From: Phycisphaerae bacterium | GTDB lineage: Bacteria > Planctomycetota > Phycisphaerae > Tepidisphaerales > Tepidisphaeraceae | Direction: 5' to 3' | Length of the DNA stretch: 58,694 nt | NCBI GenBank assembly: GCA_025924315.1 | Contig: JAICIO010000029.1 | Coordinates: 1-58,694 of the forward strand | Part shown: positions 21,572 through 42,404 of the stretch, one piece after another | Numbering within the stretch: position 1 is the first letter of the stretch | Layout: the number at the start of each line of letters is the position of its first letter | The notes under the pieces: generated by a model | Told to the model about the DNA's origin: nothing | The model's input: only the letters and a program-made list of their open reading frames with translations | Database searches by the model: none | Translations under genes and position numbers: made by a program

Positions 21572-21716
21572 CGATTCCTCGCGGATTGCCCATACTTCTG
21601 TCCGCGGGAGATGTGGTTCTGTTCTGCCCTTCCTGTAATTGAAACCTGATCCGTGTCGTCCTTTGGCGTTGGGAATGTCCGCGCCGTCCTGCGCGTTTTT
21701 GATCGAAGCAGTACCC

Positions 21717-24227
21717 ATGAATTTCACGCGCCGTCATCGTTTGCCTTATTTCTTTGAGCGGCTCGAGCCGCGGCGGTTGCTTTCTGTTTCGCTCGATTCC
21801 AACGGCTGGTATCAGTTCACGCCCTCCTCCGACACGCGCATCGTTTATGTCAGCAGCAGCGCCGGGCTCGATACGAACGATGGATTGAGCCCCGATACGC
21901 CGGTGCAAACCATCGCCGCGGGCGAGGCGCTCATTCGCAATAACTCGGCGGATTGGCTGCTGCTGAAGCGCGGCGACACCTTTGATGGCGGGTTTGGCAC
22001 GTGGCGCATGTCCGGGCGCAGCAGCGATGAGCCGCTGCTCATCGGCGCGTATGGCGACGGCGATCGTCCGCTGATCGACAGCGGCGTGCTTGAAGGCTTC
22101 TTCACCGACTACGGCGGAAGTCCGGTCAACAACATCGCGCTCACCGGCGTGCACTTCGTCGCCAACACCTACGACGGCACCAACGGGACCTTCGAAACCA
22201 CCGGCATTCGTCTGCTGCGGCAGGGGCAGAACTACATCATTCAGGATGTGAAGGTCGAGGGGTACAAGGACAACATCGTCCTGCAGGGCGATGGCACGGG
22301 CATCACAAATTTCGAGATCAACCGCGTCATCAGCATCGACGCCTACAACCACGGCAACGCCGGCAACGGTCACGCGCAAGGGCTCTATGCATATGAATTG
22401 ACGAACGGCCTCACGATCGAGCGGAGCGTTTTTGATCACAACGGCTGGAACACCACCAACGCCCCGGCGAATGTGTTCAATCACGATCTGTACATCAACA
22501 CCGGCGCGCAGAACGTAATCGTGCGGAACAACATCATCTCGCGCGGGGCGAACAATGGTTTGCTGTTGCGCGCGGGCGGAACGGTTCAAGACAATCTGTT
22601 CCTGAGCAATTCGGTCGGCGCGATCGTGGACAACACGGCGAGCATCGTCACCGGCAATGTGGTCATCGGCAGCGTGCCGGTGCCGGGCGCGGCGCAGGGT
22701 GTAGGCTTCAACATCGAAACGGATGTGTCGGGCGAAGTCGCGAACAACATCGTCGCGCACGACCAGAACTCCGGCACGAGCGGCATCGCCGGCATATCCA
22801 TCAACACCGACGCGGCGCACATCACGGTCGAGAATAACACCGTGTACGACTGGCGCAACGGCATCAGCAACAGTGGGAATCGAAAGATCACGATCCGCGA
22901 TAACGCATCGCAGGCGCCGACGGATACGACCAAGCCCATCATGCTGAACGTGCCCGCCGCGAACCCGTCGACATACTTTTATTCGAACAACATTTACTAC
23001 AGTAAAAAGAGCAAACCGTTCCAAATCAACGGCGTCGATCAGACGTTGTCGAGCTGGATCAGCGCGACAAAGGAGACCAACGCGCAGTTCCAGCAGCTGA
23101 ATTATGTGGATCCGAATCGCACGGCAGCCACGTACAACGCAACGCTCGGCGGCGATGCGACGCTCGACGCGTTTCTCACGGCCGCGCGAAACCAGACCGG
23201 CGCGTGGGATCCGAACTACGCCGCCGGCGCAGTGATCCAATACATTCGCGCCGGCTTCGCCGCGGCCGCGCCGACTGGGCAGCTCCGCGGCAGCGTTTAC
23301 AACGACGTCGACGGCGACGGCCTTCGCGACGGCGCCGACACATCCTTCGGCGGTGGCGTCACGGTGTATCTCGATTCCGACAACGACGGGCAGCTGGAAA
23401 CAGGCGAGCCGACAACGACGACTGATTCGAGCGGCAACTACAGCTTCATCAACCTCGCCGACGGCGCCTATCACGTTCGCGTTGTCGTTCCATCGGGACG
23501 ACAGCAAACGGCCCCGCTGAGCGCGACATCCAATGACATCAACATCGGGGGCGGCGCGACTTATGCGGGCAGAGATTTCGGCATCACCGGGCCGCCGTTG
23601 TATGGCAGTCTGGTGGTCAATCTGCAAACCGCGCAGCTGATCACGGCGTCCTTCAACACCGATGTCTCCGCGAGCCTCGACGCATCGGATCTGCAGGTTC
23701 GCAACGTCGACACCGGCACGCTTGTCGACTCCAGCCTCTTCACGTTCAACAAGAGCGCCGCCGGTTCGCGCACCATCGCGACCTGGAGCACCATTTCGCT
23801 GCCCGATGGGAACTATCACGTCACCCTGCCGAAAGACAGCGTCAGCAGTGTGTTCGGTGGACTGCCGGCGGATCTGACTTACGACTTCTTTGTTCTGGCC
23901 GGCGATGGGAACAACAGTCGCATCGTCGACATCCTCGACTTCAACATTCTGGCCGCCAATTTCGGTAAGACCGGGCAGACGTTCACCCAGGGTAATTACG
24001 ATTACAGCGCTGACGGCCTGGTCAACATCACCGACTTCAACGTGCTGGCGAGGGAGTTTGGAAAGCAAGTTCCCGCGCCGCCTGGGTCAGCTGCGTCATC
24101 GAACACAACAGTGGTTACGGATCCTGCCGCAGCGACACAGGACGTGTCCGCCGCGAGCATCCAGACCTCGTCGACTCGGTCGTGCCCTGATCCTCTTGAG
24201 GCAAACGTTAACGATTGGGCGGATTAA
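21717..24227 (+). CDS. LEPR-XLL right-handed beta-helix protein with SdrD-B and dockerin-like C-terminus
   Basis: 836 residues from ATG 21717; an in-frame ATG at 21675 is an alternative, as neither has a strong ribosome-binding site. The N-terminus is basic and aromatic and ends in FERLEPRRLL (residues 14-23). Residues 40-480 carry repeated short strands such as LTIERSVFDHNGW, NVIVRNNIISRG and ITVENNTVYDW, typical of right-handed parallel beta-helix proteins (pectate-lyase-like, PbH1 repeats). This fold often binds or cleaves polysaccharide, but no catalytic residues can be pinpointed. One SdrD-B-like domain (YNDVDGDGLRDGAD) and an Ig-like domain follow, then dockerin-like loops at about 725-783; the second ends LAREFGK instead of LAANFGK. 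The tail ends EANVNDWAD and carries a cysteine, unusual in this set. Confidence 0.9.
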   Translation: MNFTRRHRLPYFFERLEPRRLLSVSLDSNGWYQFTPSSDTRIVYVSSSAGLDTNDGLSPDTPVQTIAAGEALIRNNSADWLLLKRGDTFDGGFGTWRMSGRSSDEPLLIGAYGDGDRPLIDSGVLEGFFTDYGGSPVNNIALTGVHFVANTYDGTNGTFETTGIRLLRQGQNYIIQDVKVEGYKDNIVLQGDGTGITNFEINRVISIDAYNHGNAGNGHAQGLYAYELTNGLTIERSVFDHNGWNTTNAPANVFNHDLYINTGAQNVIVRNNIISRGANNGLLLRAGGTVQDNLFLSNSVGAIVDNTASIVTGNVVIGSVPVPGAAQGVGFNIETDVSGEVANNIVAHDQNSGTSGIAGISINTDAAHITVENNTVYDWRNGISNSGNRKITIRDNASQAPTDTTKPIMLNVPAANPSTYFYSNNIYYSKKSKPFQINGVDQTLSSWISATKETNAQFQQLNYVDPNRTAATYNATLGGDATLDAFLTAARNQTGAWDPNYAAGAVIQYIRAGFAAAAPTGQLRGSVYNDVDGDGLRDGADTSFGGGVTVYLDSDNDGQLETGEPTTTTDSSGNYSFINLADGAYHVRVVVPSGRQQTAPLSATSNDINIGGGATYAGRDFGITGPPLYGSLVVNLQTAQLITASFNTDVSASLDASDLQVRNVDTGTLVDSSLFTFNKSAAGSRTIATWSTISLPDGNYHVTLPKDSVSSVFGGLPADLTYDFFVLAGDGNNSRIVDILDFNILAANFGKTGQTFTQGNYDYSADGLVNITDFNVLAREFGKQVPAPPGSAASSNTTVVTDPAAATQDVSAASIQTSSTRSCPDPLEANVNDWAD

Positions 24228-39673: not shown

Positions 39674-40384
39674 TTATCGATTTCCGTGGCGGACAAGATC
39701 AACCAGTCGCGAGGCGAGCTTCGCTCGAGGGACCCATTCGGGGTCCTTGTCGCTCAGGAGATACGCGCCGGCCTCGGCGCCGTGGACCATGTCGAGCGTA
39801 TTCGCGACGAGATAATCCGCCGCACTTGCAACACGGCTCGCGGAGGCGACCCGGATCAACTCCTCGCGCGATAATCCGACTTCGAGTTTGAATTTGACGA
39901 GAATGCCTTTGTAGTTCCACGCGCCGCGGAAGAGATCGATGAGCTTTTCCGTCGGCTCGCCGAGGATCGCGATCTGCTTGTGCGTGCTCTTCACCTTGCC
40001 CGCCTGCACGTCCTGGACGATCCATCGCTCTTCACCCGGCCGATCGCCCTTCTCCTGTTTCACCACCGCGAACGTGCGCACCGGCCGGTAATCCGCAATG
40101 GCGGCGGTCATGAACACCGCGTCGTATTTTTCGTTCGTCATCCGCTCTTCGAGCAGCGATCGAAGATCCGCGTGCGAGTGAAATTCGAACGCATGAAACG
40201 TCGGCAGCCCTTCCGCATGCACCTGCGCCAGATGCGCGGGATTGCTCGTCACCAGATCAACTTCGCCGAGCTTCACGAGCGCCTGCGCAATCGCGAAGCC
40301 GGTGTTGCCGGTGAAGATATTCCCCCAATCGCGAACGTCATCGATCCGCTCGCGCGTGTTTCCCGCCGTCACCAGAAATCGCAT
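39674..40384 (-). CDS. coaB: phosphopantothenate--cysteine ligase (stand-alone CoaB)
   Basis: 236 residues matching the DNA/pantothenate metabolism flavoprotein domain that joins 4'-phosphopantothenate and cysteine in coenzyme A synthesis. The nucleotide-binding start VTAGNTRERIDDVR (5-18) and GNTGFAIAQAL are clear, as are AAIADYRPV (94-102), GKVKS and LVANTL. Most bacteria carry this as the C-terminal half of a CoaBC fusion; here the decarboxylase half (CoaC) is absent, so a separate coaC must lie elsewhere. FKLEVG, where fused bacterial CoaB usually has GFxxET, resembles the eukaryote-type ligase. It starts seven bases after the stop of 40392-42404, suggesting co-transcription with a LEPR-XLL gene. 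Confidence 0.88.
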   Translation of the reverse strand: MRFLVTAGNTRERIDDVRDWGNIFTGNTGFAIAQALVKLGEVDLVTSNPAHLAQVHAEGLPTFHAFEFHSHADLRSLLEERMTNEKYDAVFMTAAIADYRPVRTFAVVKQEKGDRPGEERWIVQDVQAGKVKSTHKQIAILGEPTEKLIDLFRGAWNYKGILVKFKLEVGLSREELIRVASASRVASAADYLVANTLDMVHGAEAGAYLLSDKDPEWVPRAKLASRLVDLVRHGNR

Positions 40385-40391
40385 GAGGTCA

Positions 40392-42404
40392 TCATACCGT
40401 CCCGCTGGAGTGCACCAACTCCGCGTCGTGGAGGAGGTCGATGCGCGACCAAGTCGACGCGATCGGTTTGCTTGTCGTTGAGATCGCGAACATCATGGCC
40501 CGTGCGCCTGGGGCCGGCACGGCCTTGCCGAAGTTCGCCGCGAGGATGTTGAAGTCGAGGATGCTTACGTTATCGACGTAGTCAAAGTTGCCCTGAGTAA
40601 AGTTGCTGCCGAAACCAAAATGCGCGGCAAGGATGTTGAAGTCTTTGATGTCGACGATGCGGTTGCGATCGGCGTCGCCGGCGAGGACGTAACCGTCGAT
40701 CGTGAAGCCGTCGCGGGTGACCACGCCCGCAGGATTCGCAAACGCGCCCGGCGCGAGCGTGAAGCGATAATTGCCATCCGGCAGTATTCCGTTTGGACAG
40801 CCCGGAAAATTAAATCCCAGCGTGTGCAAGCTGGATCCGAAGAAGGCCGAGATCTTCGACGGATCGAGCACTTCGCCGGTGTCGAGATTGGTGACCTGCA
40901 GATCGTTATCCGTCGCCGTAGCCGGGTCGATCCCGCGGCTGAGGCTGATGCCGATCGAATTGTCGTTGACGATGCTGAAGTTTTCGCCTTTGAAGAGAGG
41001 CGCGCTCGTCGCGAGTGTTTCCTGCGCCCACCGCGACTCACGAAACTCGGCATGTCCGTCGCCGAGCAGAACGTTGATTCCTTCCGGATGCAGCGAAAGC
41101 TTTTCGCTCACGACCAGGTCATACGCCGTCGACGAAATGCGAAGACCTTCACCGACATAAAAGTAATCACTGTGATGATCGATCCAGTCAAGCTTCTCCT
41201 GCGTGCTCGCGGAATCGGATGGCGGCTGCGTTGTGCTTCGCGGATCGATGAACGTGTCCAGATCGGTGATGAGGCCCGCGGTGTAGAGGAAGCTGAGGCG
41301 TTCAGGATCATTCCCACGGTTTTCATCTCCCCAATACAGAATGGCCGTCCCGATCGCGCGGAGATTCTGCTGACTCTGCAGGACCTTCGGATCGGCCGGC
41401 GGAACGGTTGGCCACGGTGGCGGCGGATCGCTTGGCGGCGCATCGGGAAAACCGATCAGCGCCGCCGCTGCCGAACGCGTCATGCTGCTCACGTGTCCGT
41501 CGCCCCAGAGGATGCTGATGTCGCCCGTTTCGCGGTTCGGATTCTCGTACGCGAGCGGCGTGTTTGCAGTCATGTCGGGCGTGCGCTTGCCGGCGCCGAG
41601 ATAAATGTAGTCGTTTCGCGATGCGACCCAGCCGACTCGTTCGACCCGTGTCAATTCACCGCGCGGGAGCAACGTCGACGTTCGCGGGTTTGCATAGAGG
41701 GTGTGCGTGCTCGCTCCAAACGCTTCCACCGCGGCGAAGTCTGACGGGAAATGCCCTTTGAAACTGTCCGCATACAGGAAGAGTGACCGGCCGATCGATG
41801 CGAGCTGCGACTGGCTGATGACGACTCGCGCCGTGTCGTTGGAGTTCAGATTGGAATACGGCGCCGCGACATCCGGGACATCCGTCGGCACAAGCACAAC
41901 TCCAGAGACGATCGCCTCGCCGCCGTTCTCACCTGCGAAGCTGAGATTAAGCTCGCCGTCCGTGATGTTCACATCGAACGCTTTCGCGATGGCGGTGTGA
42001 TTCGCGCCGGCGGCGGCGACGATGTCGAAGTTGTCGAGCGCCGTCGCGCCTTCGAGTGAAACGTCGAACATGCGCTGGCCGACGCTTGTGAATGTTGGCT
42101 CCGCGAATTCAAGCCAGAGCGCGTAATGACCGTTTGGAACAGATTTCGCGAACGTGAACGATTGCCCCGAGCGATACGTGCTGAAGAGCGTGTCGTCATT
42201 TCCGCTGACGTTCGCGACGTCATACGTTGGTGACTGCACTTCACTCCCACCCAAGAAACCGGCATCCGAGGTGAACGTTCGGCCAAGCGAATCGACAATC
42301 TGCAATCCGCCCGCGCTCACGTGCAGCGCCGGCAAATCCCCCGCGAGCAGCACGCGCGGCTCGATTGCTTCAATGACAGATCGGTTTCGAACGCTCATCC
42401 GCAT
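40392..42404 (-). CDS. LEPR-XLL malectin-like / DUF1559-like protein with dockerin-like C-terminus
   Basis: 670 residues. The tag is VIEAIEPRVLL (10-20). Residues 25-175 look like a malectin-type carbohydrate-binding domain (ALHVSAGGLQIVDSLGRTF at the start, SFAGENGGEAIVSGVVLVP at the end). The middle contains two H-X9-DG-type stretches (SILWGDGHVSSM and GINVLLGDGHAEF) and NLRAIGTAILYWGDEN, which are hallmarks of the head domain of planctomycete DUF1559 pseudopilins, but the pilin-type N-terminal helix is missing. An Ig-like domain and dockerin-like loops (about 573-627) follow. The second loop has lost residues (FDYVDNVSILDFN) and probably no longer binds calcium normally. The C-terminus ends AELVHSSGTV. 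Two closely spaced ATGs (42404, 42398) are both possible starts. Confidence 0.88.
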   Translation of the reverse strand: MRMSVRNRSVIEAIEPRVLLAGDLPALHVSAGGLQIVDSLGRTFTSDAGFLGGSEVQSPTYDVANVSGNDDTLFSTYRSGQSFTFAKSVPNGHYALWLEFAEPTFTSVGQRMFDVSLEGATALDNFDIVAAAGANHTAIAKAFDVNITDGELNLSFAGENGGEAIVSGVVLVPTDVPDVAAPYSNLNSNDTARVVISQSQLASIGRSLFLYADSFKGHFPSDFAAVEAFGASTHTLYANPRTSTLLPRGELTRVERVGWVASRNDYIYLGAGKRTPDMTANTPLAYENPNRETGDISILWGDGHVSSMTRSAAAALIGFPDAPPSDPPPPWPTVPPADPKVLQSQQNLRAIGTAILYWGDENRGNDPERLSFLYTAGLITDLDTFIDPRSTTQPPSDSASTQEKLDWIDHHSDYFYVGEGLRISSTAYDLVVSEKLSLHPEGINVLLGDGHAEFRESRWAQETLATSAPLFKGENFSIVNDNSIGISLSRGIDPATATDNDLQVTNLDTGEVLDPSKISAFFGSSLHTLGFNFPGCPNGILPDGNYRFTLAPGAFANPAGVVTRDGFTIDGYVLAGDADRNRIVDIKDFNILAAHFGFGSNFTQGNFDYVDNVSILDFNILAANFGKAVPAPGARAMMFAISTTSKPIASTWSRIDLLHDAELVHSSGTV

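Follow-up and report, generated by a model that had tools for sequence, protein, structure and literature searches.

The window analysed here, a stretch of 58,694 nucleotides that constitutes contig C29 of the genome G000 (6.57 Mb in 262 contigs), carries a gene in which sequence features of DUF1559-type pilins follow a LEPR-XLL start. The question that this locus raises is whether a pilin head can work as a free-standing module outside the filament, as the initial annotation had suggested, and if so by which route it came to its present position. In the literature DUF1559 figures as a large family of planctomycetes whose function is unknown, with 68 paralogues in Planctopirus limnophila (PMC10632474), and its proteins have elsewhere been termed solute-binding proteins (PMC2754498, PMC4807772).

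Architecture of the gene and its tandem heads

The open reading frame is borne out as real, and its features are as follows.

40392..42404, minus strand: whole open reading frame, 670 aa
42330..42374, minus strand: LEPR-XLL motif (IEPRVLL), from the match to NF012209
41898..42326, minus strand: malectin domain, residues 27-169 (PF11721, E 3.4e-26)
41445..41834, minus strand: pilin-like head 1, residues 191-320 (repeat comparison; trees)
41493..41531, minus strand: H-X9-DG-type hairpin of head 1 with Glu for His, residues 292-304 (read from the sequence; TIGR04294)
41391..41444, minus strand: proline-rich linker between the heads, residues 321-338 (read from the sequence)
41004..41390, minus strand: pilin-like head 2, residues 339-467 (repeat comparison; model; structural matches to pilins)
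41043..41096, minus strand: H-X9-DG motif of head 2 (TIGR04294, 28.1 bits)
40680..41003, minus strand: Ig-like stretch common to neighbouring LEPR-XLL genes, residues 468-575 (phmmer best E 8.7e-14; Big_5 at this place in some neighbours)
40524..40688, minus strand: dockerin-like tail with two loops (75% identity to a composite query from neighbouring tails; loop lengths)

The LEPR-XLL tag and the malectin-like domain had both been proposed from the sequence by eye, and both hold: the former scores 17.7 bits at residues 11-24 against a cut-off of 17, and the latter 92.6 bits against a gathering score of 23. PF11721 is the sole Pfam family listed at E <= 10 for the 670-residue protein, HMMER's filters dropping most matches above 0.1, and thus no prepilin leader (PF07963) is listed at that threshold. 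The H-X9-DG model TIGR04294 reaches 34.4 bits (cut-off 19) over two stretches. Two such stretches had been noted before, and both are indeed present, but the histidine is found only in the second, a glutamate taking its place in the first.

These stretches had been assigned to one head with two motifs. They belong instead to two whole heads in tandem, since residues 191-320 recur in altered form as residues 339-467 (blastp E 2e-14, 28% across 113 residues). When a profile was built from the second repeats of the window protein and its two relatives, it recovered the first repeats of all three, that of the window protein at 2e-19 and the other two at 1.8e-26 and 1.5e-17, where the best of 5000 shuffles gave 0.43. 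On sequence comparison, the two heads are homologous. The DGH of head 1 is kept in all three proteins and that of head 2 in one, having decayed to ANGN and ANGR in the two relatives, so that the original role of the module may be fading in part. The second heads also have a conserved C-terminal segment of their own, EFRExRWAxETL.

The relatives come from a search of 26 genomes of the family, 21 of which contain a match at E <= 0.001 and three of which match over both heads; a search at order level drew the same number of genomes (26). The three are the window's genome, G003 and G004, each from another genus. The two relatives are 44 and 37% identical to the window protein, with both heads free of stops and many invariant columns in each head. 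They too begin with LEPR-type motifs, recognised by eye (PF07595 is weak, E 0.041 and 0.0044), and malectin comes after the LEPR start in all three proteins. At the C-terminus, the G003 protein has another dockerin-like tail (by eye; no Pfam match at E <= 1) and the G004 protein three CBM6/35-type repeats. Because the C-termini differ, the conserved core consists of LEPR motif, malectin, head and head. The dockerin tail was also considered as part of this core and was excluded, since G004 ends in CBM6/35-type repeats instead.

In class and phylum samples of 397 and 392 genomes, no further double head was found at E <= 1e-20; at most six candidates were scored among those shown and the family was covered more deeply, so that further double heads could escape. 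A search of the genome_contigs set with the window domain alone found relatives in none of 48 stretches, and with alignment A1 in one of 29, L052, which is the G003 contig letter for letter. The viral_contigs set gave relatives in none of 32 stretches.

The dockerin-like pair noted earlier survives in part. There is a two-loop tail akin to those of the neighbouring genes, but Dockerin_1 (PF00404, gathering score 22.9 bits) has no match in the window protein at E <= 10, nor at E <= 1 when 40395-41003 is scanned alone, and the tail lies outside the conserved core. The same model gives 24.0 bits on the tail of the neighbour at 21639-24224. We counted 26 such tails in the genome, 11 of them in the window. 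The second calcium loop, previously described as shortened, is of ordinary dockerin length: the short form is common to 10 of the 26 tails, the window protein included, and the other 16, among them the 10 others in the window, are two residues longer. As calcium loops of dockerins usually have a spacing of 12 residues, which is that of the short form, it is the neighbours' loops that are long and not this one that is short. The second loop has no Asp, as read from the sequence, at two positions that usually provide ligands in dockerin loops. No cohesin (PF00963) was found in the genome, which is about 97% complete, at E <= 0.01, a search that divergent cohesins could escape. Cohesin and dockerin modules are known from freshwater planctomycetes (PMC6461901).

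The 11 tails of the window lie between 8713 and 47399, in genes with very different middle parts. The neighbouring genes have the tail in common, while the Ig-like stretch is clear in some and weak or absent in others, and the middle parts comprise FG-GAP, SdrD_B, PD40 and others. The strict pattern of a LEPR-like start occurs in 7 of 12 neighbouring open reading frames, and variant forms were seen by eye in others. Within this array of surface-protein genes, a gene at 39674-40384 starts 7 bases downstream of the head gene; read by eye, its sequence resembles the CoaB half of phosphopantothenoylcysteine synthesis.

The heads compared with pilins

An HMM search with PF07596 (DUF1559), which the initial annotation had proposed as a check, did not reach the gathering score of 23.3 bits on either head. 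Head 1 has no match at E <= 1 and head 2 gives E 0.18 and 12.3 bits. Labelling the heads directly as PF07596 was accordingly rejected. The closest link is found within the same genome, where head 2 shares 42% identity across 114 query residues (E 7.6e-17) with the head of a paralogue on contig C31, an 810-aa frame that matches DUF3352 at E 4.7e-15 and PF07596 at 23.3 bits, exactly its cut-off. Also in this genome, a 239-aa frame whose N-terminal part is hydrophobic contains a head that gives 23.5 bits with PF07596, and the model matches nine of ten scanned heads at E <= 10, the best at 4.5e-9. Among the DUF3352-type frames, two reach the PF07596 cut-off (23.3 and 24.4 bits). In frames of this type the pilin helix is still legible in its second half, as a prepilin sequence of the same genome set beside them shows. 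The DUF3352 cut-off of Pfam itself is reached in 8 of 11 such frames scanned, with one below it and two without a match at E <= 0.001; for the seven frames nearest the LEPR heads the corresponding numbers are four, one and two. As far as sequence goes, the link of the heads to DUF1559 runs through these intermediates and not through the Pfam model.

TIGR04294 has 291 matches in the 26 genomes, and we classified the best 100 of them. An in-frame leader of the form [AG]F[TS]-[LI]-[VI]-E-[LI] precedes the motif in 80, another 14 are leaderless with an upstream stop, and 6 run off the stretch taken around the match. Three of the 14 leaderless frames (L087, L157, L168), being short or unusual, could be prepilins that have been disrupted. 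Since 14 of these best 100 frames are leaderless, the H-X9-DG motif persists without a leader; and because the same type of head is leaderless in other family proteins, the window gene is not the only case, although it is the only one of the LEPR kind among the 14. Leaderless heads also occur in runs of neighbouring genes, at L047 (G020:C519:19500-26000), L046 (G009:C112) and L050 (G023:C6), and at L186 (G011:C250) and L177 (G021:C344) H-X9-DG hairpins lie behind a different N-terminal part.

The 80 prepilins allow the heads to be placed in register. The head profile matches 76 of them, and in all 76 the first residue of the head corresponds to residue 31 of the mature pilin. We then compared the best 15-residue hydropathy within the 30 residues before each head. 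In the prepilins this ranges from 2.91 to 3.69, and before the window heads it is 1.43 (head 1) and 0.65 (head 2). Low hydropathy, together with the lack of a PF07963 match, means that the window protein has neither the prepilin leader nor the hydrophobic N-terminal half of the helix. The medians fall from 3.37 in prepilins (n=80) to 2.39 in small membrane-type proteins (n=17), 1.29 in DUF3352-type proteins (n=19) and 0.48 before LEPR head 2 (n=3). LEPR head 1, at 1.63 (n=3), stands outside this simple downward series because it comes right after the end of malectin.

An AlphaFold2 model of head 2, from an alignment of four rows (two from the window and two from L052), has a mean pLDDT of 89.0 and a pTM of 0.83; of the five models two are confident (89.0 and 88.5) and three are not (66.9, 65.6 and 55.0). 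It comprises one helix of 22 residues, other helices that are shorter, and four strands, and the H-X9-DG motif forms the turn between the last two strands. A model of both heads, built from three rows, has a pLDDT of 71 and was left out of the evidence.

Foldseek with the head 2 model found nothing at E <= 0.001 (best 1.3), with no pilin in the top 50 listed, and a sequence search of solved structures with ten heads had its best match at E 0.13, to an entry that is not a pilin. When the 532 Foldseek chains were aligned with VIA-align, 12 chains from eleven entries had Z >= 2, and eight of the eleven are pilins or pseudopilins: 4noa (5.2), 4d40 (4.8), 9a1f (4.5), 2ope (4.0), 8tj2 (3.8), 3hrv (3.4), 8qqj (3.1) and 8uhf (2.6). 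The other three are 9go6 (3.2), 7cvn (2.5) and 4h45 (2.0). All of these Z values are modest, and even the best match, 4noa (rmsd 3.2 over 82 aligned residues), lies in the range where VIA-align warns of a mere common arrangement. In seven of the eight pilin or pseudopilin matches the model starts at chain residue 31; 4noa and some of the other entries are truncated constructs, for which a start near residue 30 is expected anyway. It is the agreement of the structural and sequence registers at residue 31 that makes these modest matches persuasive. Thus, comparison with pilin heads, which had been suggested as a structural check, is favourable through the eight matching entries and not through Foldseek alone, and a pilin head fold is predicted from the model.

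Because both the structural matches and the alignment of 76 prepilins start at residue 31, what the protein retains of the pilin helix is its outer half, together with the sheet, and the leader and the membrane half of the helix are lost. The earlier reading, in which NLRAIGTAIL was kept and the helix replaced, is therefore right about the first point; as to the second, only the membrane half is missing, and NLRAIGTAIL is the outer half, within the 22-residue helix of the model.

Trees and the origin of the heads

In a tree of 43 heads, which contains no prepilins and has no real root, the six LEPR heads form one clade (support 97/91), within which the first heads (100/98) and the second heads (95/85) are each united. 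The LEPR heads group with seven DUF3352-type heads at 98/92, a label given in the tree to heads that lie beyond residue 450 of their frame, and to the frames of two named loci, rather than from a scan of each frame. A rooted tree was obtained by adding the 20 best-scoring of the 76 matched prepilins, its bootstrap not being fully settled. Its split between prepilins and all other heads has a support of 99/96, a single prepilin being misplaced across it, and the DUF3352-type heads, the LEPR heads and one small membrane-type head are placed together at 92/91. Within these, the LEPR heads form a nested group with the seven DUF3352-type heads of the first tree (13 heads in all), again at 92/91; both of these values are just under the level that the tool marks with a star. 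As the first heads and the second heads each form one clade, one duplication before the split of the three genera accounts for the pair.

The heads also differ in a pair of cysteines. Of these two, one in the helix (KCASN) and one in a loop (FVCP), both are present in 27 of the 43 heads, neither in 14 and one only in 2. In 41 heads, then, the two share the same fate, a count that takes no account of relatedness, and this suggests that they form a disulphide in DUF1559-type heads. Both are absent from all six LEPR heads and from 8 of 19 DUF3352-type heads, among which are the seven nearest ones.

We show here the grouping of the heads in the trees and the absence of the leader and of the hydrophobic helix half, and we are highly confident of the anatomy and of descent from pilin heads. 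The proposal of a free-standing pilin head in a LEPR-XLL protein is upheld in these two respects only: what stands in the protein is a tandem pair, and heads of this type are leaderless in other family proteins too. It is well supported that the domain transfer is real and has a readable path, and that the protein is neither a pilin nor, by score, a member of PF07596, nor unique in lacking the leader.

Proposed role and known systems

The explanation that we favour somewhat over the rest taken together is that of a transferred and duplicated pilin head in a surface binding protein. A pilin head would have shed the prepilin leader together with the membrane half of the helix, most likely spent a stage at the end of a DUF3352-type protein, been inserted behind malectin in a LEPR-XLL protein and been duplicated there before the three genera split, the order of these events being our reconstruction. 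Since the leader and the hydrophobic helix half are absent, the protein would not be processed or packed as a pilin subunit. It would most likely lie outside the cell or on its surface, where malectin and the two heads may form a face that binds glycans or surface polymers, and where the C-terminal Ig/dockerin-like or CBM tails would act as interchangeable parts for anchoring or binding. Its likely, putative role is that of a surface binding protein that does not polymerise. Binding as such we propose tentatively, as somewhat short of an even chance; the CBM6/35 domains of the G004 relative fit the predicted glycan binding. That pilin heads freed from the filament became, via the DUF3352-fused stage, a duplicated and sub-specialised module of a secreted planctomycete protein, with binding predicted, seems to us evenly poised. 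If the heads have been freed in this way, the H-X9-DG hairpin would serve the head's own structure or binding and not prepilin processing.

It is also conceivable that the heads are a putative docking tag which mimics pseudopilin heads and attaches the protein to a type II or type IV filament of the cell, either to be exported or to be displayed on the pilus. The richness of the family in prepilins with the same motif, and the retention of the outer part of the helix in the register of pilins, would suit such a tag. The surfaces differ, however, the LEPR heads being without the cysteine pair and the second heads having their own C-terminal segment, and we regard docking as unlikely. Slightly less likely again is that a repetitive surface protein carries the heads along merely as spacers or as relics that bind nothing, as the decay of the head 2 motif in two of three proteins and the strong variation in the middle parts of neighbouring LEPR-XLL genes might imply; a relic would hardly be expected to keep both heads stop-free in three genera, with many invariant columns, at 44 and 37% identity. 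Lastly, an unrelated alpha/beta domain resembling pilin heads by chance or composition, to which the Pfam results (no match for head 1, a weak one for head 2) and the Foldseek result could be referred, is very improbable given the 42% identity of head 2 to a DUF3352-fused head whose protein reaches the PF07596 cut-off and the coincidence of both registers at residue 31.

Taking the heads as a transferred and duplicated module, the double head separates the H-X9-DG motif from prepilin processing and, being without the membrane helix, is an easier form in which to seek structure and ligands. Tuwongella immobilis is reported to have 91 proteins in which a prepilin domain and SBP_bac_10 occur together, along with a few in which SBP_bac_10 is combined with a Sec signal or stands alone (PMC8567305), so that leaderless DUF1559 proteins are already in print. 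What is new here is the LEPR-malectin double head, present in three of the 26 family genomes. Among the papers listed on DUF1559, LEPR-XLL and planctomycete pilins, no title or abstract opening mentions pilin heads in a LEPR-XLL or malectin protein.

Among known systems, the DUF1559/SBP_bac_10 (PF07596) prepilins share with the window protein the outer helix half with an NLRQIG-like segment, the DG hairpin close to where the head ends and the residue-31 register; the window protein differs in lacking the leader, the membrane helix half and the cysteine pair, in its tandem copies and in falling below the PF07596 cut-off. The DUF3352-type proteins with a C-terminal H-X9-DG head, such as the 810-aa frame on contig C31, are likewise leaderless and supply the nearest heads in both trees, but they have a single C-terminal head and the second half of the pilin helix can still be read in them. 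The leaderless SBP_bac_10 proteins of Tuwongella immobilis resemble it in having a DUF1559 domain without a prepilin motif, some with Sec signal peptides, whereas LEPR-XLL, malectin and tandem heads are not described in the part of that report available to us (PMC8567305). In PilB of Streptococcus sanguinis, a modular pilin, the pilin is also joined to a further module; PilB is reported to remain a pilin (PMC8179133), whereas the head of the window protein would have left the filament. Finally, the other LEPR-XLL/dockerin-tail proteins of the window have the N-terminal motif, the Ig-like stretch and the dockerin-like tail in common with it, but carry FG-GAP, SdrD_B, PD40 or other domains in the middle, where the window protein carries its pilin heads.
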